Assembly (NCBI RefSeq): GCF_000702325.1
Contig: NZ_KL370891.1
Location: 186,001 to 250,000 of the forward strand
DNA from: Thiomicrorhabdus sp. Milos-T2
GTDB lineage: Bacteria > Pseudomonadota > Gammaproteobacteria > Thiomicrospirales > Thiomicrospiraceae
Reading direction: 5' to 3'
DNA: 64,000 bases
Part shown: positions 496-63,356 of the stretch, piece by piece
Layout: each line of letters starts with the position of its first letter
Position numbering within the stretch: position 1 is the stretch's first letter
Translations under genes and position numbers: made by a program
The notes under the pieces: generated by a model
What the model was told of the DNA's origin: nothing
The model's input: the letters and a program-made list of their open reading frames with translations, nothing else
Database searches by the model: none

Positions 496-507
496 ACCAG
501 GCCTGGT
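496..507. repeat. ACCAGGCCTGGT palindrome, copy 1
   Basis: A perfect 12-bp palindrome lies 68 bases downstream of the mobA stop, in otherwise AT-rich intergenic DNA. It is one of seventeen perfect copies of the CCAGGCCTGG core in the window. Confidence 0.9.
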
Positions 508-583
508 AAATACTTTGGTCATTAATAGTTTGTGGGTAAGCTCTTATTTTTGTATGGATATTCTGAATAGTGCGAGTATAGCC

Positions 584-616
584 TTGACAACGATTAAAAA
601 ATTCCCATAATGGGAA
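584..616 (+). promoter_or_regulatory. higBA promoter with overlapping palindromic operator
   Basis: A TTGACA box (584-589) is followed 16 bp later by CATAAT (606-611), a good sigma-70 promoter. A 15-bp palindrome, TTCCCAT-A-ATGGGAA (602-616), covers the -10 box and the predicted start of transcription near 618. This is the expected position for autorepression by the HigBA complex. The operator role is inferred from position and symmetry. Confidence 0.65.
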
Positions 617-618
617 AT

Positions 619-918
619 ATGAGAATTATTTCACGTGCAACACTTCGAAGTTTTTGGGAAAATCCTAAATATTTGGATTCTGAACAAGCATTAAAGTCTT
701 GGTTTGATGAGGCTAAACACGCGAATTGGCAAATACCTCAAGATATTAAAAGAAAATATCGAAGCGCTAGTTTTGTTGGAAATAATAGAGTTGTTTTTAA
801 CATTCATGGCAATAAATATCGGCTTGTCGTTGCTGTTAATTATAAGTTTTCAATGTGCTATATTCGTTTTGTTGGAACTCACAAAGAATATGATGCGATT
901 GATGTAAGCACTATTTAA
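619..918 (+). CDS. higB: Toxin HigB, mRNA interferase of the RelE superfamily
   Basis: The 99-residue protein starting MRIISRATLRSFW matches HigB toxins, which cut mRNA on the ribosome. Typical family segments are ALKSWFDEAKHANW, the basic stretch KRKYRSASFVGNNRVVFNIHGNKYRLV and the C-terminal CYIRFVGTHKEYD. An ATG at 610 would add MGN but lies inside the -10 box and operator, so 619 is preferred. With the predicted transcription start near 618 the message would be almost leaderless. The toxin-before-antitoxin order with a 12-base gap to higA is the usual HigBA arrangement. The pair lies beside repeat DNA, consistent with an accessory module. Confidence 0.87.
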   Translation: MRIISRATLRSFWENPKYLDSEQALKSWFDEAKHANWQIPQDIKRKYRSASFVGNNRVVFNIHGNKYRLVVAVNYKFSMCYIRFVGTHKEYDAIDVSTI

Positions 919-930
919 GGAGAGTGAGAA

Positions 931-1299
931 ATGCATATTAAACCTATCCGAACCAATCAAGATCATCAAAATGCATTAAACCGAATTGATGCTTTATTTG
1001 ATGCAGAGCACAATACTCCAGAAGGTGATGAACTTGAAGTGCTAGTTGAATTGATTCATGCCTATGAAGAAGTGCATTTCCCAATTGAAACGCCTGATCC
1101 AATTGAAGCCATTAAGTTTCGTATGGAGCAACAGGGTATGACGGATGCAGACCTAGTTCCATATCTGGGGCAAAGAAGCCGAGTAAGTGAAGTTTTAAAC
1201 CGAAAAAGAAGGCTGTCGCTTCAAATGATTCGTAAGCTGCATTCAGGCCTGAATATTCCTATTGAAGCCCTTATTACTGAATACAGACTGACGGTTTAA
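931..1299 (+). CDS. higA: Antitoxin HigA, XRE-family helix-turn-helix protein
   Basis: The 122-residue protein has the long HigA-type N-terminal region (about residues 1-60) followed by an XRE helix-turn-helix (about 65-115) containing GMTDADLVPYLGQRSRVSEV and the LNRKRRLSLQMIRKLH recognition region. It should bind and neutralise HigB and repress the shared promoter. It is preceded by a strong ribosome-binding site (GGAGAG) and is co-transcribed with higB, 12 bases away. Base positions 1241-1254 inside the gene form a 14-bp palindrome with a CAGGCCTG core, a degenerate relative of the intergenic palindrome family. Confidence 0.88.
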   Translation: MHIKPIRTNQDHQNALNRIDALFDAEHNTPEGDELEVLVELIHAYEEVHFPIETPDPIEAIKFRMEQQGMTDADLVPYLGQRSRVSEVLNRKRRLSLQMIRKLHSGLNIPIEALITEYRLTV

Positions 1300-1349
1300 T
1301 TTTTCCCACGAAATATTCCGGCGGTTTTTAACTGTAAAAAATTAAACTT

Positions 1350-1726
1350 AATCAGACAAGACACCAGTTAATTACTAACCTAACTTGATAAAAAATCATT
1401 ATTAGATTTGAGTTATTTTCCACTTTTTTGATGCTTAAAATTGAAGCTTGGACAAACGCCTTAAGTCCCCTTGTAATAAATGGTGCAAAGTTCTTAGCGT
1501 AGTGAACGGTAAAAAAACGCTGCTGTTTGAGCGTAGCGAGTTCAGCGTTTTCAGTTCACAAGCTTAGAACTTGCTCATTTATGGAGTGGGGTTTGTTTTT
1601 TGGTTACTTTTTGCCAAATTGCAAAAAGTAACGGGAAGCCTGAGTGACAAAATTTAAGGCAAAGGCGTAATATTTTAAAAGGCTTCTCAATCACTTCACT
1701 GTCTGATTAAATCTAAGCTTTTACAT
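1350..1726 (+). repeat. Long structured repeat R, copy 1
   Basis: This fills most of the 456-base gap between higA and hisI. About 377 bp recur, diverged, at 20092-20443 and, inverted, at 36940-37401. It contains a 12-bp stem (GTTACTTTTTGC, 6-base loop, complement) and an AACGCTG/CAGCGTT inverted pair. There is no credible protein: the frames differ between copies. Nothing else is seen in the gap. The copies are too structured and too similar to be chance, but no family name can be given. Confidence 0.8.
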
Positions 1727-1755
1727 TTTAACCATTTTTTTTGCAGCCGTCTCGT

Positions 1756-2211
1756 TCAAAGGTTTTTATATAAATCTTCGGGCTTAATGATTGGGTTTGT
1801 AGTGATTACCGCTTTATTATTATGTATTTCAGTATAAAAACAGCTTCTACGACCAGAGTGACAAGCTGGGCCAGTTTGATCTACTTGCAGTAAAATCGTA
1901 TCGCCATCACAGTCAAAACTTAATGATTTTAATACTTGAATTTGTCCAGACTCTTCACCCTTGCGCCAATAATTTTGACGTGAGCGAGACCAATAGCAAA
2001 CGCGTCCGGTCTCAAGGGTTTCTTGCAGAGATTTTGCATTCATCCAAGCCATCATTAAAACTTCTTTGCTATCAAACTGCTGAGCAATTGCTGGAATTAA
2101 ACCATCTTGATCAAATTTAATTTGTGATTTTAACGCGTCCCAATCAAACTCTTCACCTTGCTGAGCTTTTTCAAGTTGTTTAAAAGTGGTTTCTGAATGT
2201 TTATCGCACAT
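1756..2211 (-). CDS. hisI: Phosphoribosyl-AMP cyclohydrolase HisI
   Basis: HisI opens the purine ring of phosphoribosyl-AMP in the third step of histidine biosynthesis, using zinc. The 151-residue protein has the full HisI core from about residue 25: DGLIPAIAQQFDSKEVLMMAWMN, the metal-site SFDCDGD, and the conserved TGPACHSGRRSCFY cysteine motif near residue 115-130. It is a stand-alone HisI, not a HisIE fusion, because the pyrophosphohydrolase domain is absent. It starts 11 bases after the exonuclease gene ends and is probably co-transcribed with it. The other his genes are not in the window. Confidence 0.93.
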   Translation of the reverse strand: MCDKHSETTFKQLEKAQQGEEFDWDALKSQIKFDQDGLIPAIAQQFDSKEVLMMAWMNAKSLQETLETGRVCYWSRSRQNYWRKGEESGQIQVLKSLSFDCDGDTILLQVDQTGPACHSGRRSCFYTEIHNNKAVITTNPIIKPEDLYKNL

Positions 2212-2222
2212 ATTCTTTGCCT

Positions 2223-3290
2223 TTATTTAAGCTGAGCCAACGCGGCAAATGGGTTGTTGGTAATGGGAGCTTCTTTCTTTTTAGGTTTCTTTTCTTCTAT
2301 CTTAGACTGAGCGCCTTTTTCGAGCATCGCATTAAAAAGTTCTACGGTTGCTCGAGCATCGGCTAAGGCATCATGCGCATCACCAGGGAATTCTTTACCT
2401 AATACCACTTCATAGGCATGGGTGAGTTTGGGGGTTTTAAAGAACCAGTACATGTTTTCACTGTGCCAGCGCATGGCTCCAATTAGGTCTTTACTTAATT
2501 CTGCTGCATCTAACCAGGTGTTATAGTCTAAATCAAATGTCAGCATTTTCTTTTCGGCACTTTTTTCTAAGTACATAAAGTCACTTTCGGTGCTGTAGGC
2601 TAAAACGATATCTGCTTTAAGTAAAGTGTCGTGAATATTATCCCAGGCCTGCCCAAGAGTGGGTTGGCCTTGAACCATTTCGGTGGTGATATTATGTTTT
2701 TCGTTTTCAGGAATATCATATCCAGGATTAATTAACTGGTTAAAGAGTTCTTTACCATGAATATCACAAGCGGATAATTGAATAATATCGGCTTCCGGAT
2801 CAGTACAAACATTAGTGGCTTCTATATCAATGCAGACGACATTTTTACCCTTTAAGGTTTTAGCATGCTCTTTTAATTTAAATAGCGCATCATTACGTTT
2901 TTCTTGAATAAGCGGAATAACCTCAGAATCACAAAATTCTTTGATGAGTTCAGTCAGTTTTTTAGCAAAACGAGTCACCGACTTTGTTAAAGCTGCACGT
3001 ACGGTTTCATCTTCAGAACAGCGTTCAATAAACTGCTCAATATTAATGATTTCTTCACCAATAATAAGTTTAGACATTGACTCTTCCGCTAATTTTTTAG
3101 GGTTGTAGTCTAGCTTTTCTAAAGGAGGAATATAAATGCTGGCATTGAGTAATGATTTTTGCCCTTTTGCTGGTGAGGCCATCACTTCAACCCCTTTAAT
3201 GTTTAAGCCATCGGAGGCGGCAACCGCAACAAGATAGTCTTTAAGAGGTTGGTTACGTTTATCTAACAAAATCAGTTGTGCATTACTCAT
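2223..3290 (-). CDS. DEDDh 3'-5' exonuclease with an N-terminal domain of unknown function
   Basis: The C-terminal half (about residues 145-325) is a DnaQ-like DEDDh exonuclease. CIDIEAT carries the first Asp-Glu pair, the IVLAYSTESD region the second Asp, and the GDAHDALADARAT segment the catalytic His and last Asp. It probably degrades single-stranded DNA or RNA from the 3' end. The first roughly 140 residues match nothing I recognise; they are largely helical and contain AKKLTELIKEF. The C terminus is a lysine-rich tail ending NPFAALAQLK, which resembles the short peptide ends that bind partner proteins. The link to hisI appears to be only transcriptional. Exact substrate unknown. Confidence 0.75.
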   Translation of the reverse strand: MSNAQLILLDKRNQPLKDYLVAVAASDGLNIKGVEVMASPAKGQKSLLNASIYIPPLEKLDYNPKKLAEESMSKLIIGEEIINIEQFIERCSEDETVRAALTKSVTRFAKKLTELIKEFCDSEVIPLIQEKRNDALFKLKEHAKTLKGKNVVCIDIEATNVCTDPEADIIQLSACDIHGKELFNQLINPGYDIPENEKHNITTEMVQGQPTLGQAWDNIHDTLLKADIVLAYSTESDFMYLEKSAEKKMLTFDLDYNTWLDAAELSKDLIGAMRWHSENMYWFFKTPKLTHAYEVVLGKEFPGDAHDALADARATVELFNAMLEKGAQSKIEEKKPKKKEAPITNNPFAALAQLK

Positions 3291-3370
3291 AAGAAAGGGC
3301 TTTATGTTAAAAAATAATGAGGGGTATTGTACCGTTTATGAAAGCAGATAATTGAGAAATCAATCTATTA

Positions 3371-3385
3371 GAGACCTTTGCACGG
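3371..3385 (+). mobile_element. Solo MITE terminal repeat
   Basis: GAGACCTTTGCACG followed by G and a T run matches the end of the MITE family described elsewhere in the window, but no partner end is found nearby. It lies between the exonuclease start and the glycosyltransferase stop. It is probably a decayed element. Confidence 0.55.
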
Positions 3386-3397
3386 TTTTTTTTAATT

Positions 3398-4519: not shown

Positions 4520-4583
4520 GTTTTAACTTTATATGCATTATGTTAAAAATAGATGATAGCTGGATTAAATTGTGTGGGGGTTT

Positions 4584-4616: not shown

Positions 4617-4661
4617 GGTTTTTAGACTGGTATTAGAAACCCTACTTTTAGAGATTGTAAT

Positions 4662-5537: not shown

Positions 5538-5565
5538 AGTAACTTACCAGGCCTGGTAAGTTACT
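5538..5565. repeat. Extended CCAGGCCTGG palindrome (28 bp), copy 2
   Basis: A perfect 28-bp palindrome centred on AGGCCT starts 13 bases after the plcP stop and lies between convergent plcP and the GNAT gene. A moderately T-rich stretch follows on the + strand. It may work as a bidirectional terminator. Confidence 0.85.
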
Positions 5566-8239: not shown

Positions 8240-8267
8240 TAAGACTTACCAGGCCTGGTAAGTCTTA
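8240..8267. repeat. Extended CCAGGCCTGG palindrome (28 bp), copy 3
   Basis: A perfect 28-bp palindrome whose right end includes the stop codon of the glycerate kinase gene (minus strand, stop at 8265-8267). It is the palindrome placed tightest against a gene. Confidence 0.88.
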
Positions 8268-17545: not shown

Positions 17546-17557
17546 ACCAGGCCTGGT
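17546..17557. repeat. ACCAGGCCTGGT palindrome, copy 5
   Basis: Perfect 12-bp copy 25 bases after the diguanylate cyclase stop, in a convergent gene junction with sodB. Confidence 0.88.
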
Positions 17558-21953: not shown

Positions 21954-21963
21954 CCAGGCCTGG
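21954..21963. repeat. CCAGGCCTGG, left target duplication of the IS4 element (palindrome copy 6)
   Basis: The 10-bp core directly abuts the left IS end. With 23262-23271 it forms the target-site duplication. Before insertion the site would have read TTACCAGGCCTGGTTG, a normal member of the palindrome family downstream of cca. Confidence 0.92.
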
Positions 21964-23261
21964 CACTAGTGTCCGGAATAATATTTCAGTACCACAATTC
22001 ATATACCAGCCTCCCATAGCGGAAGTTGGTATTTCTTAAACTCTTCCCGTTGTTGTTTTCGCCTAAAGTATTCACTCTGCTGAATAGGTCTTTCAAACAA
22101 CCCATGAGCAAGCCGCCAAAACGTTACTCTCAACGGTTCTGCTGACTTATTTTTCATCTGTTCAAGCTTAATCAATAGATACACAATAAGGGCTGATAGC
22201 ACTTGGATACGAACAGCATTACTGTTTTGGCCAATGAAGCTTTTGATTTTGAGGTGTTGTTTAATCCATTTAAAAAATAATTCAATTTGCCAGCGTTGCT
22301 TGTATAGATGGGCAATCTCTTGAGCTGAACGCTCGAAGTCATTGGTAATCAATACCAATTCACCTTTATTATCGTCACGTTTGACAACAACACGGCGCAT
22401 CTGGAATTGACCAAGACGTTTTTTCTGGCTTGAACCACTAAACTCAATGCATTGGTCTTCAAGAATATGAGGGGCTTTTTCATCGAGTTCGTAGGATTGT
22501 ATGACGGTAATTGCCGCTCTTTTTTTCAAACGACAGACCAGCTGGATTTTTTGGTCATTGAGCTTTTTCCACCAGAGGTAGTCTAAGTACCCTTTATCCA
22601 TCACATAGGTTGAACCTGGTTCTAAATTCCACTCTCGTGCTTGAGTAATATCAGGAATATTGGCCTGTGTGATTTCAAAACAAACAGGGACTTGGTTGGA
22701 TAGTTCTAGTTGCATATGCAGCTTAAAGCCTGTGACTCGAGAACCTTGTACTGCCCAGTCAAAACCTTTACCGAGCAGTTGAATTGGAGAAGAGTCTATT
22801 AGATAGGTAAAAGCGTGGAGTTCTTTTCGTAATTGTCGATTCACACCAGCCATGAGTTGTTGGCAAAGTGCTTGGTAGACATCAGCAGAGCGTTTACGGT
22901 TTGCTTCAGATAATGTGCTGCGTTTCAGCTCTTTTACGCCTAAGTGGTAGTGGTGAGAGGATTGGGCGTTAAACCCTTCAACCAACTGGCGTAATGATTT
23001 AGTGCCACTAAGTTGTGCGTACATCATCGCGACTAATTGATTCCAGCTACTAAACCCTTTGGCGTGTTTATCGGTTTGATATTGATGAACAAGTGATTGA
23101 AAAGTGGTACGAATGGGTTTTAAAAATTGGGCAAATCGGGTAGAGTTAAACATAGCCGTAATCTCATTGTTTTTGAAGTCTATTTCGTGGTGGAAATACT
23201 TCTATCCTAGGAGTTACGGCTTTTTTGTCAAGGCTTTTAATATTTATTCCGGACACTAGTG
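21964..23261 (-). mobile_element. Complete IS4-family insertion sequence, 1298 bp
   Basis: The terminal inverted repeat CACTAGTGTCCGGAATAA is identical for 18 bp at both ends and then continues with a one-base offset. One full transposase gene fills the element. A perfect 10-bp direct repeat, CCAGGCCTGG, flanks it, fitting the roughly 10-12-bp duplications of several IS4 groups. No internal frameshift is seen, so the copy looks young and potentially active. Confidence 0.93.
21999..23153 (-). CDS. IS4-family DDE transposase
   Basis: The 384-residue transposase begins MFNSTRFAQFLKPIRTTFQ and ends 35 bases inside the left end of the element. The YREK signature of the IS4 family is clear: Y-K-Q-R, then E and K, in LYKQRWQIELFFKWIKQHLK (about 288-307). 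The first catalytic Asp is in TYLIDSSPIQLLG and the second in YVMDKGYLDYLWW. An N-terminal DUF4372-type region with WNQLVAMMYAQLSG precedes the catalytic core. No disruption is visible. It mobilises the element by cut-and-paste within the CACTAGTG-type ends. Confidence 0.95.
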   Translation of the reverse strand: MFNSTRFAQFLKPIRTTFQSLVHQYQTDKHAKGFSSWNQLVAMMYAQLSGTKSLRQLVEGFNAQSSHHYHLGVKELKRSTLSEANRKRSADVYQALCQQLMAGVNRQLRKELHAFTYLIDSSPIQLLGKGFDWAVQGSRVTGFKLHMQLELSNQVPVCFEITQANIPDITQAREWNLEPGSTYVMDKGYLDYLWWKKLNDQKIQLVCRLKKRAAITVIQSYELDEKAPHILEDQCIEFSGSSQKKRLGQFQMRRVVVKRDDNKGELVLITNDFERSAQEIAHLYKQRWQIELFFKWIKQHLKIKSFIGQNSNAVRIQVLSALIVYLLIKLEQMKNKSAEPLRVTFWRLAHGLFERPIQQSEYFRRKQQREEFKKYQLPLWEAGI

Positions 23262-23271
23262 CCAGGCCTGG
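23262..23271. repeat. CCAGGCCTGG, right target duplication of the IS4 element (copy 7)
   Basis: Perfect direct copy of 21954-21963, immediately after the right IS end. Confidence 0.92.
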
Positions 23272-24588: not shown

Positions 24589-27500
24589 GTCATATAGAGA
24601 TTACTCCTGAAAAGGATGATTTGGATATACATCCAAAAGAATCTAAATTTAAGTCAAGTGGGATTATTGGTGTTTTTGCTCGCCATAAAGTCGCCCCAAA
24701 CTTATTGATGATTATTATGATTTTGGCTGGAATTGTGGCATTAATGAAGTTGAATGTGCAGTTCTTTCCGAACTTTTCTTTAGATTATGCCACCGTTAGG
24801 ATTGTTTGGCCTGGTGCGAATGCTCAAGACGTTGAAAGTAGTGTTACCGATCCAGTAGAACGTGTTTTACGAAATCTTGATAACCTGGATGAAATGACCT
24901 CTACCTCTTCATTGGGGGTATCTTCAGTCTCCTTAAAATTTAAAGAAGGCACCGATATGATCGATGCCTTAGATCAAATTAATCAACGCGTTGGCGAACT
25001 TAGAAACTTACCCCAAGATGCCCAAAAACCGGTGATTGAAAGGGTGGTTAGATATGAACCTATTGCAAAAGTTTTAGTGAAAACCGAAAAAGGCAGTCTT
25101 CAAGAGCTTAGGCCTCTAGTGAGAGGGTTTGAGCGAGATTTATTGAACCGAGGTATTGATAAGGTTAATTTTAAGGGTTTGCCAACAGAACAGATGGCGA
25201 TTGAGATTTCGCAAGAAGCTTTAGATCAATACAATCTGACTTTAGAGTCAGTGGGTAATAAAGTTGCTGGTATGAGTACGGATTATCCAGCCGGTTCGGT
25301 AGGGGATGATGATAGTGTGCGTGATTTACGAGCACTGGAACAGAAGCGAAGTGCGGTTGCTTTTAGTCAAATGCCAATTGTGAATTCCAACTCTCAAAAT
25401 CTCACTTTAGGAGATATTGCAAAGATAGAGCGCCGACCCACTAGGAATTCGCCGTATTTAACCGTAGATGGTTCACCAGCCATTGAGATGCAGTTAATGC
25501 GAGCTGAAGCGGGTGACACGCTTAAGTCTTCAAAAATTATGCAACAGTGGCTTGCAGAAACCACACCAAAGCTTCCGCAAGGCGTGAGCATACAAGTTTA
25601 TGATGAAACCTGGTCACTGGTTAATCAGCGTATTATGTTGTTGGTTAATAATGGTGTTGGTGGATTAATTCTGGTGGTATTAATCCTCTATATTTTCTTA
25701 AATGGACGGGTTGCATTTTGGGTGGCGGTTGGTATCCCCGTCTCTTTTATGGCAACGTTAATGATTATGTATCTAGCCGGCGGCTCCATTAATATGGTGA
25801 GTCTGTTTGGTTTAATTATGGCTTTAGGGATTATAGTTGATGATGCTATTGTGGTGGGGGAAGATGCGTTAGCTCATCATGAGATGGGCGAGTCTGATTT
25901 ACAAGCAGCAGAAGGTGGTGCGCACCGTATGTTAGGCCCGGTTACCGCGTCTTCACTTACAACGGTAGCGGCTTTCTTGCCGTTAATGTTAATTGGCGGT
26001 GAGATTGGTAATATTTTATTTGCGATTCCGCTAGTGATTGTAGCGGTTATTTTTGCATCACTGCTTGAAAGTTTTACCGTGCTTCCTGGGCACTTACGAC
26101 ATGCGCTAAAAGGCGTTAAAAAATCCGAAGAGGTCTCTATTCGCTATCGATTAGATGCTGGGATTAATCATTTTAGACATCACCAGTTTAGAAATGTGAT
26201 TCGTTGGGTACTTAATCACCGAGGTATTACTATTGCAACCACCCTTGCGTTAATGATTTTTGTGATTGGGCTTTTAGCTGGCGGACGTTTAGGGTTTGTA
26301 TTTTTTCCTTCGCCAGAATCCACTAAATTAAATGCTAATGTGACATTTGTTGCGGGTACGCCGGCTTCTGTTTCTGCTAAATATGTTGACCACCTTTATG
26401 AAGCACTGCTAGAAACTGAAAAAGAGCTTGAGCCCGGTATTCTTAAAGTTGCTGTGGTACATTACAACGCAACCACAACGCAAAATGGAGCAAATTTTGC
26501 AGCTATAAATGTGCAGTTAGAAGAGCCAGATTTACGTAAAACTCGTAATACCCAATTTTTGAAATTGTGGGAGAAGAAAGCGGGTAGTGCACCAGGCCTG
26601 GATACCTTAACCATTAGTTCGCCTAAAGCAGGCCCTCCAGGCAGTGACGTGGATGTTCGTTTGTTTGGTGCTGAACCTATGAAGCTAAAACAAGCGGCTT
26701 TAGATTTAGAACAAGTGTTAGAGCAGGTTCAGGGCGTAAGCGGTATTCATGATGATTTGCCGTTTGGGCGAGACCAGTTAATCTATCAGCTAACTCCACA
26801 AGGCAAAGCTTTAGGCTTTACTTATATTTCGCTTGGGCGACAATTGTCGGATGCGTTTTCTGGGCGATTAGCGCAAATATTTACCGATGGAGAAGATGAA
26901 GTTGAAGTGCGTGTTCAATTCCCTGCGGCACAACAAGCTTCTTTAGGTACTATTAATAAAATGCAGGTGGTTTCACCAAGTGGTGAGCGAGTTCCATTAA
27001 GTTCGGTGGCTAGTTGGTCAACGCAACAAGGTTTTGATGCGATGCGACACGTTGATGGACAGCTTGCGGTAACGGTTTTAGGTGATGTAGATAATAATGC
27101 AAACAACGCTAATCAGATTTTAGAAAATTTACAAGCTACCGCCTTACCTGAACTAGAGAAAAAATATGGTATTAGTTATAGCATTGAAGGGCAAAATAAA
27201 CGTCAAGCAGAAACCATGGCCGATATGAAAATTGGTCTTATGATTGGTTTATCAATGATCTATATTGTGCTTGCTTGGGTATTTGGTTCTTATGGTTGGC
27301 CTTTAGTGGTGATGATGGCGATTCCGTTTGGTTTAGTGGGGGCGATTTTGGGTCACTGGTGGTTGGGCTTAGATATGACGATTCTTTCAATGTTTGGTTT
27401 TTTTGGATTATCCGGGATTGTTGTGAATGACTCGATTATTTTAGTGAGTTTTTATAAATCATTAAGAGCCTCTGGTTTAGCCATTAATAAGGCGTTAGAA

Positions 27501-30339: not shown

Positions 30340-30351
30340 ACCAGGCCTGGT
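30340..30351. repeat. ACCAGGCCTGGT palindrome, copy 9, with a degenerate neighbour
   Basis: A perfect 12-bp copy lies 20 bases before the gap start codon. A related TCAGGCCTGA palindrome sits just upstream at 30328-30337. This pair is in a leader region, not after a gene end only, so it may affect gap translation or tkt-gap read-through. Confidence 0.85.
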
Positions 30352-32826: not shown

Positions 32827-32863
32827 ACCAGGCCTGGTCGTTGTAATAATTACCAGGCCTGGT
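32827..32863. repeat. Two tandem ACCAGGCCTGGT palindromes (copies 10 and 11)
   Basis: Copies at 32827-32838 and 32852-32863, 25 bp apart, start 17 bases after the pgk stop. The second is followed by TTTTAT. The double copy between two co-directional genes suggests local duplication. Confidence 0.9.
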
Positions 32864-40772: not shown

Positions 40773-40784
40773 ACCAGGCCTGGT
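40773..40784. repeat. ACCAGGCCTGGT palindrome, copy 12
   Basis: Perfect copy 5 bases beyond the cbbQ stop (minus strand). Confidence 0.9.
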
Positions 40785-42055: not shown

Positions 42056-42077
42056 AACCTACCAGGCCTGGTAGGTT
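42056..42077. repeat. Extended CCAGGCCTGG palindrome (22 bp), copy 13
   Basis: AACCTACCAGG and its complement form a perfect 22-bp palindrome 44 bases beyond the cbbS stop. Confidence 0.9.
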
Positions 42078-42493: not shown

Positions 42494-43912
42494 TTACTTA
42501 TGCTTAACGTCAAGCTTATCAACTGTGTCGAATTCAAACTTGATTTCTTTCCAAGTTTCCATTGCGATCTTAAGTTCTGGGCTATCTTTAGCTGCGTTAG
42601 TAAGGATTTCTTTACCAACTTTCTCAATCTCTTTACCTTCGTTACGAGCTTGTACACAAGCTTCAAGTGCAACACGGTTAGCCGCTGCACCAGCAGCGTT
42701 ACCCCATGGGTGGCCTAAAGTACCACCACCGAACTGAAGAACTGAGTCATCACCGAAGATAGAAACTAACGCTGGCATGTGCCATACGTGAATACCACCA
42801 GATGCAACTGGAATAACACCAGGCATCGCACCAAAGTCTTGGTCAAACATGATTCCACGTGAACGATCTTCTGGGATGAATGAATCACGCATGATATCAA
42901 TCCAACCTAGAGTTGCTTCACGGTCACCTTCTAACTTACCTACAACCGTACCTGAGTGTAAGTGATCACCACCAGATAAACGAAGTGCTTTAGTTAGTAC
43001 ACGGAAGTGAATACCGTGATGCGGGTTACGGTCAATTACCCCGTGCATTGCACGGTGAATGTGTAACAACAGACCGTTCTTACGGCAGTAATTAGCAAGA
43101 CCAGTGTTAGCAGTGAAACCACCTGTTAGGTAATCGTGCATGATAATCGGCGCACCGATTTCTTTAGCGTACTCTGCACGCTCATACATCTCTTCTGGCG
43201 TACCTGCAGTTACGTTTAAATAGTGACCTTTACGTTCACCGGTTTCAGCTTCTGCTTTATTGATTGCATCTTGACAGAAAGAGAAACGATCTCTCCAGCG
43301 CATGAATGGCTGTGAAGTTACGTTTTCATCATCTTTCGTGAAATCTAAACCACCACGAAGACACTCATATACAGCACGACCGTAGTTTTTAGCAGAAAGA
43401 CCAAGCTTAGGTTTGATAGTACAACCTAACATTGGACGACCATACTTATCCATCTTGTCACGTTCTACTTGAATACCGTTTGGTGGCCCACCACAAGTCA
43501 TAACGTAAGCTAGTGGGAAACGGACATCTTCAAGACGACAAGCACGAAGTGCTTTAAATCCGAATACGTTACCAACTAATGAAGTCATTACAGATACGAC
43601 TGAACCTTCTTCAAATAAGTCAATTGGGTATGCAATGAAAGCGTAGAAACAAGTATCGTCACCAGGAACGTCTTCAATTCTATACGCACGACCTTTATAA
43701 TAGTCAAGGTCTGTTAATAAGTCAGTCCATACAGTTGTCCATGTACCCGTTGAAGATTCAGCGGCAACAGCTGCTGCAAGTTCTTCACGAGGAACACCAT
43801 CCTGTGGGATTAATTTAAAACATGCTAGAAAATCTGAGTCTTTTGGCTCGTAATCTGGCATCCAATAAGTTTCGCGGTATTCTTTTACACCGGCATTGTA
43901 AGTCTTAGCCAT
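42494..43912 (-). CDS. cbbL: RuBisCO large subunit, form IA (non-carboxysomal, IAq type)
   Basis: It carboxylates ribulose 1,5-bisphosphate to two 3-phosphoglycerates. The 472-residue protein has all key sites: the catalytic Lys in [11 protein letters not shown] (about 172), the carbamylated Lys in [10 protein letters not shown] (about 200), [21 protein letters not shown] (loop 6) and [13 protein letters not shown]. The sequence type and adjacent cbbQO point to the IAq branch. Its promoter faces a divergent cbbR, with a likely operator at 44042-44056. The codon bias is that of very highly expressed genes. Confidence 0.97.
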
Positions 43913-46584: not shown

Positions 46585-47985
46585 ATGGATCAGTCGAATC
46601 GTTACGCTGACTTAACTCTAAAAGAAGATGACTTAGTTGCTAATGGTAACCATCTTCTAGTTGCTTACCGTCTAAAACCAGCTGCTGGTTACGGTTTCTT
46701 AGAAGTAGCCGCTCACATCGCTGCTGAGTCTTCAACTGGTACTAACGTTGAAGTTTCTACGACAGATGATTTCACTCGTGGTGTTGATGCACTTGTATAT
46801 GACATCGACGAAGCAGCATTTGGTGAAAAAGGTGGCCTAATGAAGGTTGCTTATCCTGTTGAACTTTTTGACCCTAACTTAACTGATGGAATCTATAACG
46901 TTTCTCATATGTGGTCTTTAATTCTAGGTAACAACCAAGGTATGGGTGACCACGAAGGTCTTCGTATGTTAGATTTCTTGGTACCTGAGCAAATGGTTAA
47001 GAAATTCGACGGTCCAGCAACTGACATCTCTGACCTATGGAAAGTTTTAGGTCGTCCAGAAGTTGACGGTGGTTACATCGCAGGTACTATCATTAAGCCT
47101 AAACTAGGTCTACGTCCTGAGCCATTTGCTAAAGCATGTTATGACTTCTGGTTGGGTGGTGACTTCATCAAAAACGATGAGCCGCAAGCTAACCAACCTT
47201 TCTGCCCAATGGAAGTAGTTATTCCTAAGGTTGCAGAAGCGATGGATCGTGCTCAGCAAGCTACTGGTGAAGCAAAACTGTTCTCTGCTAACGTAACGGC
47301 TGATTTCCATGGCGAAATGATTCACCGTGGTGAGTATGTATTAAGCGAATTCGCTAAATACGGTAACGAAAAACACGTTGCATTCTTGGTTGATGGTTTT
47401 GTAACGGGTCCAGCGGGTGTAACAACTTCTCGTCGTGCTTTCCCTGACACTTACCTACACTTCCACCGTGCAGGTCATGGTGCATTGACTTCTTATAAGT
47501 CACCTATGGGTATGGATCCTCTATGTTACATGAAGTTAGCTCGTTTAATGGGTGCTTCAGGTATTCATACAGGTACTATGGGTTACGGTAAAATGGAAGG
47601 ACACTCTGGTGAAACGGTTCTTGCTTATATGCTTGAGCGCGATGAGTGTCAAGGGCCATATTTCTATCAGAAATGGCACGGAATGAAGCCAACTACTCCA
47701 ATCATCTCTGGTGGTATGAACGCATTACGTCTTCCTGGTTTCTTCGAAAACCTAGGTCACGGTAACGTTATCAACACTTGTGGAGGTGGTGCATTCGGTC
47801 ACATTGACAGCCCAGCTGCTGGTGGTCTTTCTCTAGGTCAAGCTTATGACTGCTGGAAAACGGGTGCAGATCCAATCGAATACGCTAAAGAGCATCCAGA
47901 ATTTGCTCGCGCATTTGAATCTTTCCCTGGTGATGCAGACAAAATCTTCCCAGACTGGAGAGAAAAATTGGGTGTTCACAAATAA
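46585..47985 (+). CDS. cbbM: RuBisCO form II
   Basis: A RuBisCO of large subunits only, usually used at high CO2 and low O2. The 466-residue protein has [20 protein letters not shown], the catalytic Lys in [16 protein letters not shown] (about 165), the carbamylated Lys in [16 protein letters not shown] (about 190), [16 protein letters not shown], the loop 6 segment [14 protein letters not shown] and [13 protein letters not shown]. The sequence is typical form II, not form III or a RuBisCO-like protein. Codon bias is very strong. A terminator with a TTCG loop follows, so cbbQO downstream is probably transcribed at a lower level. Confidence 0.97.
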
Positions 47986-53006: not shown

Positions 53007-53726
53007 ATGAAAATTCTGTTGGTTGAAGATGAACCTCTTCTGGTTGATAATTTAACCCAACGTTTTAAAGCGTTAGGGTTTATTATTGATACCGCCTCTG
53101 ATGGTGAGCAAGGTTTATATTTGGCTCTAGAGTATCAATATGACCTGATTATTTTAGATTTAGGTTTACCAAAATTACCAGGCCTGGTCATTTTAGAGAA
53201 ACTTCGTCAAGTTAACTTCTCCACGCCCGTTTTAATTCTTTCAGCACGCAATAGTTGGCAAGAGCGGGTGCAAGGATTAAAAAAAGGGGCTGATGATTAT
53301 TTAGGCAAACCTTTTCATTTTGAAGAGTTGTTGGCAAGAATTGAAACCTTATTTAAACGCCATTTGCCTAAAGGTGATGCCATCTGCTTTTCCCCCAAAC
53401 ACATCGCCGGCTTAGATTCCGTGTGCTTAGATACCGAATCAAAAAGTTTATTCATTAATCAACAATCACAATCGCTGACTCTGACAGAATACCGTTTGGC
53501 TTACGCTTTTTTTAGTCGTCCGCAGCAGGTTTATTCTAAACAAGTTTTGCTTGATAAAATCTCCGAAAGCACTGAAGAAAAAGAATCAAATATTATTGAG
53601 GTCTATATCCGACGATTACGTTCATATCTTGGTAAAGAAGCCATTCTCACTCAGCGTGGTCAGGGGTATCGACTCACACTCGCGGATGATGATTTGGTTC
53701 CCGCTAAAGCGAATGGGGGCGAATAA
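53007..53726 (+). CDS. OmpR-family response regulator of a metal-efflux system
   Basis: The 239-residue protein has a receiver domain (about 1-120) with phospho-acceptor Asp in LIILDLGLPKLPGL, acidic pair EDEP and Lys in KKGADDYLGKPF. A winged-helix DNA-binding domain (about 130-225) ends NIIEVYIRRLRSYLGK...TQRGQGYRL. Subgroup features are those of QseB/CusR-like regulators. The kinase gene follows at once, and the pump genes for heavy metals come next, so control of the pump is likely. The CCAGGCCTGG palindrome falls inside the receiver at 53178, read as LPGLV. Confidence 0.88.
   Translation: MKILLVEDEPLLVDNLTQRFKALGFIIDTASDGEQGLYLALEYQYDLIILDLGLPKLPGLVILEKLRQVNFSTPVLILSARNSWQERVQGLKKGADDYLGKPFHFEELLARIETLFKRHLPKGDAICFSPKHIAGLDSVCLDTESKSLFINQQSQSLTLTEYRLAYAFFSRPQQVYSKQVLLDKISESTEEKESNIIEVYIRRLRSYLGKEAILTQRGQGYRLTLADDDLVPAKANGGE
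53177..53188. repeat. ACCAGGCCTGGT palindrome, copy 14 (inside response regulator)
   Basis: Perfect 12-bp copy in coding frame as TTA CCA GGC CTG GTC, Leu-Pro-Gly-Leu-Val. Confidence 0.88.
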
Positions 53727-53727
53727 A

Positions 53728-55104
53728 GTGAAATCATTACAGCATCAATTATCTGTCTTACTTGGGCTGAGTTTGCTGGGTGTTTTTATTCTGTTTTGGT
53801 GGTTCTCAATTAAAACCATTCATCAGGTTGCAGACGACTATGTCCTAACGCGTTTAGATCACGACTCTGAAGCGGTGGTAAAAAATCTGCACCTTAAAAA
53901 TAATCAATGGCACTTAGATATTGAGAATATTGAACCTATCTATTCTCAAATATATTCTGGCCACTACTTTGTTGTCAAAGTGGGGCAACAAACCTTTAAA
54001 TCGCCTTCATTAAACCATTACCCTATGTTGTTACAGGCTTGGAAAAACAGTGATAATGAAAAAAGGAACTATGAAACCTTAGGGCCTTTGGTGAGTGAAG
54101 GGCATCGTGAAAAACGCTCAAAACTCTTGGTTTTAGCGACTAAAACCAGTAAAAACAATGTGCCAATCCGTCTCTATGTTGCAGAGGATCATTCTCCGAT
54201 ACAGGAAAGTTTAAAATATTTTGATTGGGTATTTGGTATCTTTGCTGTTATCACTTTATTACTTCTTTATGGGTTACAAAAATGGATTTTAAAACGTACC
54301 TTTACACAGCTTGAACCCATTGAGACCCAGTTAAAAGAATTAGAAATTACGCATCAATTTTCCATTGATCACACGCAATATCCCAAAGAAATGGCATCGC
54401 TGATTGAAGCTTTAAAAGACGCCTTGCAACAAGCGGCGAAACAATTAAAAACCTCGCGGCAGTCTAATGCGAATCTGTCTCATGCCTTAAAAACGCCGCT
54501 TAATTTAGCCTTTCAAATTTTAGAGCAAGTCGCCATTAATCCTTCGCCAGATAATTTACAGCTTGTTCAGCAACAGATGCAACAGCAGCTGTCTAAGATT
54601 CATCATTTAATTGATAGAGAGCTTAAAAAAGCCCGCATCGCTTCTGATGCACCCTTAAGTAATCGTTTTGATTATAAACATGATTTGAAAGCCTTAGCGG
54701 ACTCATTAAAGCAGCTACATCAAGCCAAAAATATTCAGCTAGAGATTGATTTGCCAAATTTACCAGGCCTGGTCATTGAAAAAGAAGATGGTTTTGAGTT
54801 ATTGGGTAATTTATTAGACAACGCATTTAAATGGGCAAGATCACAAGTGACCTTTAGGTTAACCGAACAATTAGGTTGCACCACCATTATGATTGAGGAT
54901 GATGGTCAAGGCGTGAGTGATGAACTGTTGAACAGTTTACAAACCCGTGGTTTTAGAGCGGATGAAAGCACGCCCGGTCACGGCATTGGCTTGTCGATTG
55001 TTAAAGATTTGGTAGAGGCCTATTCAGGCGAATTACAATTTAGTCCTTCTGATTTGGGTGGTTTGAAAGTACAGATTGTTTTTAGAGACCTTTGCACGAG
55101 ATAG
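53728..55104 (+). CDS. Sensor histidine kinase; C terminus supplied by a MITE
   Basis: Start is GTG at 53728, one base after the regulator stop, with GGGGGCG upstream; a longer frame overlaps the regulator gene and is unlikely. The 458-residue protein has two membrane helices (about 10-28 and 165-185) around a periplasmic sensor region. It then has a HAMP-like segment, the His box NANLSHALKTPLNLA, an N-box ELLGNLLDNAFKWA, and G boxes IEDDGQGVSDE and GHGIGLSIVKDLVEAY. The last six residues (RDLCTR) and the stop are encoded by the MITE at 55085. The catalytic domains are complete, so it may still work. A CCAGGCCTGG palindrome lies at 54763, again read as LPGLV. Confidence 0.86.
   Translation: MKSLQHQLSVLLGLSLLGVFILFWWFSIKTIHQVADDYVLTRLDHDSEAVVKNLHLKNNQWHLDIENIEPIYSQIYSGHYFVVKVGQQTFKSPSLNHYPMLLQAWKNSDNEKRNYETLGPLVSEGHREKRSKLLVLATKTSKNNVPIRLYVAEDHSPIQESLKYFDWVFGIFAVITLLLLYGLQKWILKRTFTQLEPIETQLKELEITHQFSIDHTQYPKEMASLIEALKDALQQAAKQLKTSRQSNANLSHALKTPLNLAFQILEQVAINPSPDNLQLVQQQMQQQLSKIHHLIDRELKKARIASDAPLSNRFDYKHDLKALADSLKQLHQAKNIQLEIDLPNLPGLVIEKEDGFELLGNLLDNAFKWARSQVTFRLTEQLGCTTIMIEDDGQGVSDELLNSLQTRGFRADESTPGHGIGLSIVKDLVEAYSGELQFSPSDLGGLKVQIVFRDLCTR
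54762..54773. repeat. ACCAGGCCTGGT palindrome, copy 15 (inside histidine kinase)
   Basis: Perfect copy in frame as Leu-Pro-Gly-Leu-Val, in the linker just before the ATP-binding domain. Confidence 0.88.
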
Positions 55105-60834: not shown

Positions 60835-60835
60835 T

Positions 60836-61138: not shown

Positions 61139-61156
61139 TTTTTGGGTTCTTATATT

Positions 61157-61190
61157 GAGACTTTCGCTCCTATCTCGAGCAAAGATACTC
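61157..61190. mobile_element. Degenerate 34-bp MITE mini-element
   Basis: GAGACTTTCGCTC and CGAGCAAAGATACTC are mutated MITE ends facing each other with a few bases between, just after the metal operon. It resembles the mini-element at 38045. Confidence 0.45.
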
Positions 61191-61208
61191 TATAAAATTG
61201 TTAGACTT

Positions 61209-61234
61209 TAAAGCTACCAGGCCTGGTAGCTTTA
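61209..61234. repeat. Extended CCAGGCCTGG palindrome (26 bp), copy 16
   Basis: TAAAGCTACCAGG and its complement form a perfect 26-bp palindrome. It lies 12 bases beyond the metY stop in the convergent junction with the metal operon. Confidence 0.9.
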
Positions 61235-61245
61235 TAAAAAGTTAT

Positions 61246-62523
61246 TTAAATGGATGCTTTTAACGCTTGTTCTAGGTCTTCTAAAATATCGTCAATATGT
61301 TCAATACCAATGGATAAACGCACCATGTCAGGTGTTACGCCTGCTGACTTTAACTCTTCATCATTTAACTGGCGGTGAGTGGTTTCAGCAGGAATACTGG
61401 CAAGCGATTTGCAGTCACCAATATTCACTAGTCGCACGACTAGATTCAAAGCATCATAGAACTTAATGGTTCCATCTCGTCCTGCTTTTAAACCAAAACT
61501 TAATATGCCGGAGGCTTTGCCATTCATATATTTTTGTGCCAACGTATAATCTTTATGACTTGGCAGGCCTGCATAATTTACCCAAGATACCAAATCATGG
61601 TTTTCTAACCATTCAGCGACCTTTTGGGTGTTTTCACAGGTACGTTCCATGCGTAAAGCCAAGGTTTCTAAACCTTGCATTAATTGGAAAGCACTTTGTG
61701 CCGATAAGGCTGCACCCATATTTCGTAATGGCACAACACGACAACGGGCAATAAAGGCGGCTGCCCCAAAGTCTTCGGTGTAAGTTACGCCGTGATAAGA
61801 AATATCAGGTGTGTTTAATAAAGGAAAGCGCTCGGCGTTTTCAGCCCAAGGGAAGTTGCCTGAATCTACAATGACTCCCCCTAGCGTTGTGCCGTGACCA
61901 CCAATGTATTTTGTTGCAGCGTGAATGACAATATCCGCCCCATCTTCAATTGGACGCCATAATGCTGGCGAAGCAACTGTACTATCTACAATTAAAGGAA
62001 TGCCATGTTGATGAGCAATCTCAGCTAAACGACTCACATCAGCAATACCACCAGAAGGGTTGCCAATGGTTTCGCAGTAGATTGCTTTGGTTTTACTATC
62101 AATTAAAGCACTAATTTCAGCATTGTTTGTATCTTTATTAAAGAAGCGAGCCTCAATCCCTTGACGAGGTAATGTGTGAGCAAATAAGTTATAGGTTCCA
62201 CCATACAACTCACTGGCACTTAAAAAGTTATCGCCTGCCTCGGCAATGGTTTGCAAAGTATAAGTAATCGCCGACATACCTGAAGCCACTGCTAAAGCCG
62301 CTATTCCTCCTTCCATTGCTGCAACACGACTCTCTAAAACCGCATTGGTTGGATTCATAATGCGTGAATAGATATTACCTGGTACTTTTAAATCAAACAG
62401 GTCAGCGGCATGTTGAGCATCATCAAAAGCAAAAGAGGTCGATTGATAAACAGGTACAGCTACCGCCTTAGTAGTTTCTTCAGGGGTATAGCCGCCATGA
62501 ATGGCAATGGTTTCAAGTTTCAT
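61246..62523 (-). CDS. metY: O-acetylhomoserine (thiol)-lyase / sulfhydrylase
   Basis: A PLP enzyme of the Cys/Met metabolism family that makes homocysteine (or, with methanethiol, methionine) from O-acetylhomoserine and sulfide. The 425-residue length fits MetY, not the shorter cystathionine synthases. Marks are AIHGGYTPEETTKAVAVPVY, the YSRIMNPTNAVLESR segment, the PLP Lys in HAATKYIGGHGTTLGG (about 200-215) and LVRLVNIGDCKSLA near the C terminus. In a sulfide oxidiser, direct sulfhydrylation is plausible. It lies downstream of bioD but 125 bases apart, so a separate promoter is likely. Confidence 0.92.
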   Translation of the reverse strand: MKLETIAIHGGYTPEETTKAVAVPVYQSTSFAFDDAQHAADLFDLKVPGNIYSRIMNPTNAVLESRVAAMEGGIAALAVASGMSAITYTLQTIAEAGDNFLSASELYGGTYNLFAHTLPRQGIEARFFNKDTNNAEISALIDSKTKAIYCETIGNPSGGIADVSRLAEIAHQHGIPLIVDSTVASPALWRPIEDGADIVIHAATKYIGGHGTTLGGVIVDSGNFPWAENAERFPLLNTPDISYHGVTYTEDFGAAAFIARCRVVPLRNMGAALSAQSAFQLMQGLETLALRMERTCENTQKVAEWLENHDLVSWVNYAGLPSHKDYTLAQKYMNGKASGILSFGLKAGRDGTIKFYDALNLVVRLVNIGDCKSLASIPAETTHRQLNDEELKSAGVTPDMVRLSIGIEHIDDILEDLEQALKASI

Positions 62524-62648
62524 TTGGTATCCTTGTTACTTTTTGGTTACTTCGTTGTTAGCAAAGGAGCCATCTTAGAAAAAAACTCGGCTAAAAACAA
62601 AGATATTAGAGGATGTTAATTTCTTAATGGTAGGAAATGAATGATTGA

Positions 62649-63356
62649 TTAAGAAATTAATAAACCCGGGATGAATTTTGTTTTTTGGGATGAGGAAGTT
62701 GGTAGCGAATAGATTGGAATATTGGTCAAGCTTTCAAGACCTAAAGAGTGATTACCATTGTCAGAAAAATTCACGATAATCGCCCAAACTGGTAAGCCTG
62801 CTTGTTTAATTGCGGCTAACGTTAATAATGTGTGATTGATACAACCCAGCTGGTTTTTTACGACTAAAATAACCGGTAAATTGAGGGCTTGGGCTAAGTC
62901 TTTGTTTAACCCATCTGAACAAAGAGGGGAGTAAAATCCACCTGCACCTTCAACCAATAACAACTCATCGTTTTGAAGTGGATGAGCGGGCTGGCAGGCC
63001 TGGAGTAAATCATTGTTATTTAGGGTTAGACCAGCTTGTTGAATAGCGGTTTGTGGAGAGATAGCGGGTTCAAACTGGTAGGGGCAAATGGTTTGAAGAG
63101 GTTCATTGGTTTGGCAGGATTGTTGTAAAAATAGAGCATCCTCGCTCAGTAAAGAGCCATCAGCTTGTTTAATACAACCAGAGGCGATTGGTTTACGAGG
63201 AATAACACGAAAGCCATTCTCAATAAACGTGTGAGCTATACAGCCTGAAACGTAAGTTTTACCAACGTCAGTATCGGTTCCTGTAATAAAAAAACCACCA
63301 GCAGAGTTACCAGGCCTGGTGGTTTCAGCAAATAAAGAATTTATTTTTTGGGGCAT
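62649..63356 (-). CDS. bioD: Dethiobiotin synthetase BioD with an N-terminal extension
   Basis: It closes the ureido ring of dethiobiotin from diaminopelargonate, CO2 and ATP. The P-loop is GTDTDVGKTYVSGC (about 27-40), with the conserved KPIASGC and LVEGAGGFYSPL motifs. The 235-residue length is normal or slightly long. Compared with usual BioD proteins, about 20 residues precede the P-loop strand. That stretch contains the in-frame palindrome (TTRPGNSA), so the first codons may have been remodelled or the real start may be later. It is preceded by purC, 31 bases away, on the same strand. Other bio genes are not in view. Confidence 0.88.
   Translation of the reverse strand: MPQKINSLFAETTRPGNSAGGFFITGTDTDVGKTYVSGCIAHTFIENGFRVIPRKPIASGCIKQADGSLLSEDALFLQQSCQTNEPLQTICPYQFEPAISPQTAIQQAGLTLNNNDLLQACQPAHPLQNDELLLVEGAGGFYSPLCSDGLNKDLAQALNLPVILVVKNQLGCINHTLLTLAAIKQAGLPVWAIIVNFSDNGNHSLGLESLTNIPIYSLPTSSSQKTKFIPGLLIS
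63309..63320. repeat. ACCAGGCCTGGT palindrome, copy 17 (inside bioD)
   Basis: Perfect copy near the 5' end of bioD, read on the minus strand as Thr-Arg-Pro-Gly in the N-terminal extension. Confidence 0.88.

Follow-up and report, generated by a model that had tools for sequence, protein, structure and literature searches.

The iterated palindrome CCAGGCCTGG of Thiomicrorhabdus sp. Milos-T2, a probable dialect of a DNA uptake word among Thiomicrospira-type sulfur oxidizers

The palindrome and its neighborhood

The window, i.e., the whole 64-kb stretch of DNA analyzed, harbors 17 exact copies of the 10-bp palindrome CCAGGCCTGG, which consists of two abutting CCWGG sites with GGCC at the center. 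All positions listed in a preliminary description of this DNA were exact (17/17), and its chance expectation of fewer than 0.1 copies agreed with 100 dinucleotide shuffles of the window (mean 0.02, maximum 1). The copies and associated features are as follows:

497..506, no strand assigned, CCAGGCCTGG copy
5538..5565, 28-bp perfect palindrome round copy 5547–5556, the copy lying 21 bp past a stop codon with a T-run after it, terminator-like
8240..8267, 28-bp perfect palindrome round copy 8249–8258, the copy lying 6 bp past a minus-strand stop codon
9802..9811, no strand assigned, CCAGGCCTGG copy
17547..17556, CCAGGCCTGG copy, 26 bp past a stop codon
21954..21963, CCAGGCCTGG copy, target duplication to the left of the insertion sequence (IS)
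21964..23261, minus strand, 1298-bp IS4-type IS inside CCAGGCCTGG
21999–23153, minus strand, transposase of the IS4-type element (DDE_Tnp_1 and DUF4372)
23262..23271, CCAGGCCTGG copy, target duplication to the right of the IS
26592..26601, CCAGGCCTGG copy within an AcrB-type transporter ORF
30341..30350, CCAGGCCTGG copy at the transketolase/GAPDH gene junction
32828..32837, CCAGGCCTGG copy past the phosphoglycerate kinase gene
32853..32862, CCAGGCCTGG copy 25 bp beyond copy 32828
40774..40783, CCAGGCCTGG copy 5 bp past the stop of a CbbQ-type gene
42056..42077, 22-bp perfect palindrome round copy 42062–42071
53178..53187, CCAGGCCTGG copy within an ORF
54763..54772, CCAGGCCTGG copy within an ORF
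61209..61234, 26-bp perfect palindrome round copy 61217–61226, the copy lying 19 bp past a minus-strand stop codon
63310..63319, CCAGGCCTGG copy within an ORF

As described earlier, 13 of the 17 copies are intergenic; the other four (26592, 53178, 54763, and 63310) lie inside long ORFs, based on ORF lists with a minimum of 150 aa up to base 12000 and 220 aa beyond. The placement of copy 497 is less sure because ORFs open at the window edge are absent from these lists. The reported extension of several copies to perfect palindromes of 22–28 bp was likewise correct (5547, 28 bp; 8249, 28 bp; 42062, 22 bp; 61217, 26 bp). The outer arms of the word, said to differ, weakly follow a consensus that is symmetric about the dyad and reads CCTGG-T-(A/T)-(A/G)-n-T-T-T in both directions. 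A search of the window against Rfam gave no match.

Predicted hairpins were stable in four of the five copies tested, i.e., 5538..5565 (−15.7 kcal/mol, z −4.6), 8240..8267 (z −4.3), 42056..42077 (z −3.9), and 61209..61234 (z −3.9); copy 53178, located within an ORF, gave no stable hairpin (z −0.5). Palindromic extension by at least 5 arm bases was observed in 16 of 123 copies, as compared to 2.3 in shuffled flanks. Some copies thus appear to be reused as single-copy terminator hairpins, and the earlier argument against plain terminators holds with the qualification that a minority, the 16 with long arms, seem to double as such. Uptake words as terminator-like hairpins have been reported for Neisseriaceae and Pasteurellaceae (PMC1852404, PMC13020248).

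Abundance and placement in the genome

The genome-wide count proposed in the preliminary description showed that the copies extend beyond the window, with 612 occurrences of CCAGGCCTGG in 2.66 Mb and none of the reversed control. A 464-kb sample of the same genome (the window and 20 stretches of 20 kb, with a mechanical ORF model; 725 ten-base windows read N) contained 124 copies against 0.24 expected. In this sample, 71 of the 124 copies fall within ORFs, the intergenic density of CCAGGCCTGG is higher (odds ratio 5.6, Fisher p 5e-18), and the median distance past the stop codon is 35 bp (45 copies). The widest gap among the first 100 copies (269–305 kb) was considered as a foreign island, but in the 10 kb examined, ORF reading revealed ribosomal-protein genes and rpoB rather than foreign DNA.

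Dialects and architecture of the word in the family

The comparison covered 62 genomes of the GTDB family containing Thiomicrorhabdus, Hydrogenovibrio, and Thiomicrospira. Counting in related genera, also proposed earlier, gave 106–856 copies of CCAGGCCTGG in 27 of the 62 genomes, 15–44 in five, and 0–8 in 30, and these abundance classes differ even inside one genus. Several genomes low in CCAGGCCTGG have other dialects, i.e., ACCGGCCGGT, CAGGCCTG(C/T)T, ACCCGGCCTGTTGAGTTT, and CCCARCCTGGCAGATTTT, the last two being non-palindromic. The dialect of G027 is ACCGGCCGGT, that of G023 is ACCCGGCCTGTT, and CAGGCCTGCT/TT is found in G024, G041, G046, G047, and three genomes of genus g6. CCCARCCTGGC occurs in 225, 252, and 273 copies in G007, G008, and G013, where CCAGGCCTGG numbers 0, 1, and 0, and in 0–7 copies in the other 59 genomes. 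The inner GGCC with CCTG is present in most dialects, the exceptions being G027 (CCGGCCGG) and the left half in G007, G008, and G013 (ARCC).

In several sister genomes, no such word was seen, in that none of the 8- or 10-mers in the 6–108 kb scanned was over-represented in this manner, a scan that a rarer word escapes and that left out G001–G003, G020, G033, G035, G036, G039, and G043 among others. When placed on the ComEC tree, the dialect labels proved to be clustered, requiring 11 changes as compared to a shuffled mean of 24.7; here, the label of G033 (CAGGCCTGyT group; 15 copies of CCAGGCCTGG) was given without a scanned stretch, that of G014 (none seen) rests on 3.5 kb for ComEC and two pattern counts of 0, and those of G016 and G018 are based on stretches of 6 and 10 kb.

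Nearly all dialects share a common architecture, namely a short stringent core and a T-tract 10–12 bp from the dyad. The core is stringent: as compared to 124 exact copies, 31 copies have a changed outermost base, and the 12 other single changes total 11. Palindromic cores have a two-sided T-tract and non-palindromic cores a one-sided one. Most palindromic dialects show T at about 0.4–0.7 on both sides, the same being observed within ORFs. The CCCARCCTGG and CCGGCCTGT dialects form no palindrome and have a one-sided tract, with T at 0.86–0.92 in G007, G008, and G013 (36 sites) and 0.71–0.82 in G023 (17 sites). Copies with both, one, and no tracts numbered 52, 60, and 23 as compared to the expected 49.8, 64.4, and 20.8, indicating that the two halves are independent. 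If one tract per copy were sufficient, tract-less copies rarer than 23 of 135 would be predicted, a point counted against the uptake reading.

Uptake signaling and alternative explanations

Thiomicrospira-type sulfur oxidizers are likely to use a DNA uptake sequence, with CCAGGCCTGG as the dialect of the present species. Among the three options put forward in the preliminary description (HIP1-like, uptake-type, and chromosome-organizing), the uptake type is the best supported, on account of abundance, phylogeny-following dialects, a core with an AT-tract (here a T-tract) in fixed register, substitution-type change, terminator reuse (by sequence), and, more weakly, competence machinery. Copies are also kept between relatives above background, at 82 of 109 sites as compared to 0.285 (7010/24620 other 8-mers with six G/C). 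The half-site CCTGG-Y-A-R-n-TTT would be read by a DNA receptor on the cell surface, probably an MSH-like minor pilin of type IV, and the bound DNA would be drawn in and passed to ComEA/ComEC. Word-bearing fragments would recombine more often. New copies would originate by point mutation and be propagated and maintained by the resulting recombination drive, with dialects shifting along with the receptor. In most word-bearing species, the palindrome would consist of two adjoining, inverted half-sites, and a copy would therefore be readable on either strand or by a dimeric reader; a few species would have a one-sided T-tract owing to the divergence of one half. Past genes, some copies may have grown into longer hairpins that serve as terminators.

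Certain observations count against uptake. Single uptake words are rarely perfect palindromes, and in G054–59 (a Thiomicrospira-like group), the T-tract is weak and closer to the dyad. The 269–305 kb gap, of which 10 kb were examined, lends no support to a depletion of CCAGGCCTGG in foreign DNA. Reports of natural competence in these genera were also absent from the papers listed, judged by titles and abstract starts. The 106–856 exact copies also fall below the 1,465 and 1,892 uptake-word copies of H. influenzae and N. meningitidis (PMC7811141).

Alternatively, the word could be the binding site of a dimeric nucleoid-associated or chromosome-organizing protein, spread genome-wide and favoring gene ends. 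The two-fold symmetry, the T-tracts placed symmetrically at one turn of the helix from the dyad, the hundreds of copies, and the higher density between genes are in agreement with such a site. However, regular spacing was not found, the first 100 copies being spaced random-like (CV 1.11 vs. 0.99 for random, 5–95% 0.85–1.15); several sister genomes showed no such word; relatives differ mostly by substitutions in single copies; and dialect switching, with four dialects within genus g1, two within g3, and non-palindromic forms in two cases, fits badly. This option is retained as a rival but considered unlikely.

A mobile or structural repeat, i.e., intrinsic-terminator stems, REP-type palindromes, or footprints of a motif-targeting IS, would explain the position of copies shortly past stop codons, the stable hairpins, and the contact of the IS with the motif at 28 of 28 ends. 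This is very unlikely, as so many sampled copies lie within ORFs, long arms are confined to the 16 copies, and the DUF4372 IS family occurs in only 3 of the 62 genomes. Sites differing between relatives showed 1–2 substitutions in 20 of 29 cases and gaps in 3 of 29; mobility of a REP-type unit is disfavored because the differences are of the substitution type.

Chi likewise shows species dialects (PMC3630211), and a Chi-, KOPS-, or other recombination-type signal read intracellularly may be envisaged. It is a highly improbable explanation, considering that the asymmetric CCCARCCTGGC is near equal on both strands (127/98, 138/114, and 138/135), that the plus-strand copies, those for which positions were covered, are weakly skewed between contig halves (first half, 49 of 127 with p 0.013 and 59 of 138 with p 0.11), and that the word is denser between genes. 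Least probable of all is a HIP1-like iterated palindrome maintained by an orphan DNA methyltransferase or repair bias, since, although CCAGGCCTGG is palindromic, highly iterated, and contains CCWGG and GGCC, the search with PF00145, which covers the C5 type only, gave no match in 18 of the 27 genomes that contain 100 or more copies (including all nine of g6) and no C5 methylase above the cut-off in 19 of the 27 (own genome included), and the non-palindromic dialects with one-sided T-tracts do not fit.

Competence machinery and candidate readers

Matches to ComEC were found in 56 of the 62 family genomes, ComEA-type HHH matches in 16 of 16 tested genomes (13 above the cut-off, own genome below), and pilin-type N-termini in 14 of 14. 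The same three types of matches were observed in 10, 9, and 9 of 14 control genomes and also in genomes with no motif seen; hence, the presence of the machinery is weak evidence. G035 (106 copies, 82% complete) had no ComEC match, which counts against uptake.

Several candidates for the reader were rejected. ComP_DUS (PF16732) was above the cut-off in 0 of 62 genomes, with one match below it (G051). The GspH model, which presumably covers FimT, matched in 3 of 62 genomes, all lacking the motif, and the G051 match sits in a type-II-secretion-like cluster. The C2 pilin cluster, considered as a competence operon, reads by its sequences as the GspG-H-I-J genes of type II secretion. Another candidate, the solitary 172-aa pilin at G000 C1:465473, has no N_methyl counterpart in the motif-bearing G007, G008, and G056, and a similar pilin is present in G030, where no motif was seen. 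That searches of the 62 genomes with the ComP_DUS and GspH models found no reader protein is counted against the uptake reading.

Comparison with known iterated words

The Pasteurellaceae uptake words (Hin-USS AAGTGCGGT, Apl-USS ACAAGCGGT) are similar in their many copies and short stringent inner core as well as in downstream AT-tracts, clade dialects, and terminator reuse (PMC12616744, PMC7811141, PMC1852404). In contrast, the core described here is unrelated (CCTGG half-site), mostly a perfect palindrome with two-sided tracts, one per half instead of two downstream, and its hosts are free-living sulfur oxidizers of a different family. The Neisseriaceae DUS, with several dialects read by ComP, resembles it in phylogeny-following dialects, an inner core with CTG, and inverted pairs serving as terminators (PMC12616744, PMC3630211); in Simonsiella, overlapping simDUS/kingDUS pairs form a dyad (PMC3630211). 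It differs in that here ComP_DUS is not above the cut-off in any of the 62 genomes, a T-tract is present, and each copy is itself a palindrome. Cyanobacterial HIP1 (GCGATCGC) is also a highly iterated palindrome (PMC4390886), whereas the present word lacks the C5-methylase link and has non-palindromic dialects and a T-tract.

Among the papers listed in our literature search, published uptake sequences concerned Neisseriaceae and Pasteurellaceae only. None of those listed described CCAGGCCTGG from a bacterium or assigned uptake sequences to the genera studied here, and the listed papers that contain the CCAGGCCTGG string do not, by their titles, deal with bacterial genomes. Neisseriaceae and Pasteurellaceae live mainly on mucosae. 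They are called the sole families known to select their own DNA by words (PMC12616744, 2025), a trait for which competition with host DNA on mucosae has been offered as one explanation (PMC7811141).

A transposon that targets the word

The genome carries 13 complete copies of the IS4-type element and two single ends (contig 2, one at the contig end), and CCAGGCCTGG adjoins 28 of 28 ends. The ends CA------T and the 10-bp target duplication conform to the IS4Sa subgroup of the IS4 family (CA------T, 8–10 bp duplication), as does the length of 1298 bp (PMC2266710). Unlike IS4Sa, the element targets one fixed 10-bp genomic word in every copy examined, and hence each copy is bracketed by two words.

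Tentatively, signals for the uptake of self-DNA may have arisen independently for a third time in these free-living chemolithoautotrophic sulfur bacteria, as a two-fold symmetric word (two CCTGG-YARn-TTT half-sites, with one-sided decay in some species), with a transposon that has evolved to home on the signal and ride transformation. If true, a third, free-living family would directly test the host-DNA competition explanation, the dialect series would offer palindromic and one-sided words within one genus, and the co-variation of dialects would give a new route to the receptor. Every IS copy would be flanked by two uptake signals and could ride natural transformation between cells, and the motif-homing IS would provide a natural genetic test of the worth of the word to a passenger.

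For another DUF4372 element of this genome, the two copies compared had no motif in their flanks, and G038 holds only a distant match (33% over 87 aa) on a stretch without the motif. G058 has two matches, one of them below the cut-off. The single IS copy examined in G058, which belongs to another genus, also lies at the motif.

Abundance and placement of the palindromic word

Strain Milos-T2 falls within the Thiomicrorhabdus/Hydrogenovibrio/Thiomicrospira family: its phosphoglycerate kinase is 94% identical to the Thiomicrorhabdus chilensis counterpart, and the window carries two RuBisCO large-subunit genes, ~2.7 kb apart and divergently oriented, next to which lies a CbbQ-type gene:
42494-43912, - strand, RuBisCO large-subunit gene
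46585-47985, + strand, RuBisCO large-subunit gene

All 17 copies of the 10-bp perfect palindrome CCAGGCCTGG in the window were found exactly at the positions in the preliminary description, against 0.02 expected. The genome comprises 2.66 Mb on two contigs, and the window spans positions 186001-250000 on contig 1. The enrichment proved genome-wide: there are 612 copies in all, whereas the reversed control word is absent. In a 464-kb sample of this genome, made up of the window and stretches L009-L028, CCAGGCCTGG was the most frequent palindromic 10-mer (124 copies; runner-up, 27), and the 29 other palindromes of the same half-composition had two copies together. Variants at the outermost base (three changes) totaled 31 copies and the remaining 12 single-base changes 11. 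In this sample, 53 of the 124 copies lay between ORFs. The density was 0.66-1.59 per kb between ORFs versus 0.174 per kb within them, and was highest in convergent gaps. For the 45 copies with a defined upstream stop codon, the median distance past it was 35 bp. Among coding copies, the AGG-CCT reading frame was rare (6/67).

A second iterated palindrome, TAGCTAGCTA, with the extended form ATAGCTAGCTAT, had 27 copies in the 464-kb sample, and overlapping repeat words were found around GAGACCTTTGCACGAG (GAGACCTTTGCA, 50 times in 400 kb). These are repeat families apart from CCAGGCCTGG.

Distribution and dialects in the family

In the 62 genomes of the GTDB family holding Thiomicrorhabdus, Hydrogenovibrio and Thiomicrospira (the order contains the same 62), the comparison with relatives yielded 106-856 copies in 27 genomes, 15-44 in five and 0-8 in 30. 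In other bacteria, 71 loci with the phosphoglycerate kinase gene, amounting to 1.17 Mb, contained two copies (the nine nearest loci counted apart). A scan for over-represented words in 6-108 kb stretches per genome, covering part of the genomes, showed that several low-copy genomes carry another word, constructed along the same lines.

Dialects of the word in individual genomes (G-handles)
G027: TACCGGCCGGTA; CCGGCCGG 50 times in 107 kb
G024, G046, G047 and G041: mixtures of CAGGCCTGTT and CAGGCCTGCT
G023: TACCCGGCCTGTTGAG
G007: CCCCAGCCTGGCAG
G008 and G013: CCCCAACCTGGCAG

Counted in all 62 genomes, CCCARCCTGGC occurred 225, 252 and 273 times in G007, G008 and G013, which hold 0, 1 and 0 copies of CCAGGCCTGG, and 0-7 times in the other 59. 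No word was seen in the scanned stretches of G025, G029, G030, G031, G040, G042, G050 and G051, and likewise none in several genomes of greater distance or lower completeness. When the six dialect labels are mapped on a ComEC tree (52 genomes), 11 changes are needed versus 24.7 in shuffles; the CCCARCCTGG trio forms a single clade (support 100/100), and the label "none seen" requires at least three changes. A stretch of the Thiomicrospira-like genome G054 (L044) contains the repeat words TGGGAACGAG and CATTGCGAGG, another interspersed repeat family.

Half-site architecture and turnover

Read outward from the center, the Milos-T2 dialect is C C T G G T (A/T) (A/G) n T T T on both sides, so that the T-tract lies one helical turn (10-12 bp) away from the dyad. 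Coding copies keep the tract (T 0.53, 0.61, 0.45); hence, it is not merely a terminator tail. The tracts of the two sides are independent (both/one/none, 52/60/23; expected, 49.8/64.4/20.8). The tract is two-sided at the same 10-12 bp in G021, G027, G024/G046/G047, the genus g3 group and G052/G053/G060/G041 (T 0.39-0.66). It is one-sided in G023 (17 sites; CCTGT-T-G-A-G-TTT, T 0.71-0.82) and in G007/G008/G013 (36 sites), where one half reads CCTGG-C-A-G-A-TTTT (T 0.86-0.92) and the opposite side is without a tract; in G054-G059 it is weak and shifted. What unites the dialects is a half-site that carries its T-tract in a fixed register and occurs either once or as a pair. The uptake sequence of Pasteurellaceae (USS) likewise consists of a core plus AT-tracts, which, according to PMC12616744 and PMC7811141, aid uptake.

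In ten pairs of related regions (≤20 kb each, both directions counted), the 8-bp core was unchanged at 82 of 109 aligned sites; among other 8-mers containing six G/C, the figure was 7010 of 24620. Where just one genome of a pair had the word (29 sites), the difference was one base (15), two (5), three to five (6) or gaps (3). Together, this conservation and the substitution-type differences indicate that copies are mostly gained and lost by substitution, not insertion, and kept by selection or drive. At one site in the comparison of stretches L182 and L184, the word is intact in G011, and in G012 a 25-bp GC-rich insert lies inside it, both outer arms being preserved.

The word as a putative uptake sequence

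The word is best read as a candidate DNA uptake sequence; it is classed as probably working like one, not as a proven member. ComEC is present in 56/62 genomes, and pilin N-termini were found in 14/14 tested. TIGR00426, which we take to be the ComEA HHH repeat, matched in 16/16 tested (13 over the cut-off, Milos-T2 just below). The pilins of Milos-T2 include an MSH-like set (our label) with minor pilins of 267-506 aa; among N_methyl matches, G056 has just two such large pilins besides the major one. These three gene types do not separate word-bearing from wordless genomes, and competence-machinery models also match 9-10 of 14 control genomes. As for a reader of the word, neither the ComP_DUS nor the GspH model points to one in the 62 genomes: GspH exceeded the cut-off in G040, G042 and G051 only, all without the motif, and the G051 match sits in a type-II-secretion-like pilin cluster.

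The suggestion of a HIP1-like motif gained no support from C5 methylases: among the 27 genomes with at least 100 copies, 18 lack any match to one and 19 have nothing over the cut-off. The first 100 copies are spaced much like randomly placed ones. Asymmetric dialects occur nearly equally on both strands, their plus-strand copies being split slightly unevenly between the two halves of a contig. The widest gap among the first 100 copies lies in a ribosomal-protein/rpoB region, which is compatible with strong coding constraint and lends no support to the idea that foreign DNA lacks the word.

According to PMC12616744 (2025), Neisseriaceae and Pasteurellaceae are the sole families known to tell their own DNA apart by such motifs; PMC1852404 does not name Thiomicrospira. 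No uptake-sequence report for the Thiomicrorhabdus/Hydrogenovibrio/Thiomicrospira family was found in the open-access literature searched.

A transposon targeting the word

One insertion in the word lies in the window:
21954-23271, IS4-type element of 1298 bp together with the motif copy on either side; transposase with DDE_Tnp_1 and DUF4372

Milos-T2 has 13 complete copies; in addition, contig 2 carries two single ends, one of which is truncated by the contig boundary. ACCAGGCCTGG directly precedes 28/28 ends; therefore, every insertion split one motif into two. The element resembles IS4Sa in its ends and its 10-bp duplication (PMC2266710). In G058, which is from a different genus (g6), the single copy examined is bracketed by the same 10-bp target, and its transposase is 77% identical. 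As this DUF4372 family was found in 3/62 genomes, the element is a user of the word and not its source. By carrying two putative uptake tags, it might gain transfer; alternatively, its benefit could be a plain safe landing site. A second DUF4372 element in Milos-T2 (eight matches, two with an internal TGA) has other flanks, the motif being absent in both copies compared (L011:16459-17748, L123:14728-16018).

Probable reuse as terminators

Some copies probably double as terminators. Paired uptake sequences of Neisseriaceae (DUS) and Pasteurellaceae form terminators by two copies, whereas here one is enough because CCAGGCCTGG is itself inverted. TerminatorNet (PMC13020248, 2026) names these two families for uptake words in terminators. 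Palindromic extension by at least five arm bases was seen in 16/123 copies versus ~2.3 in shuffled flanks. In the window, four long palindromes fold with z of -3.9 to -4.6, and one coding copy is without a stable fold (z -0.5).
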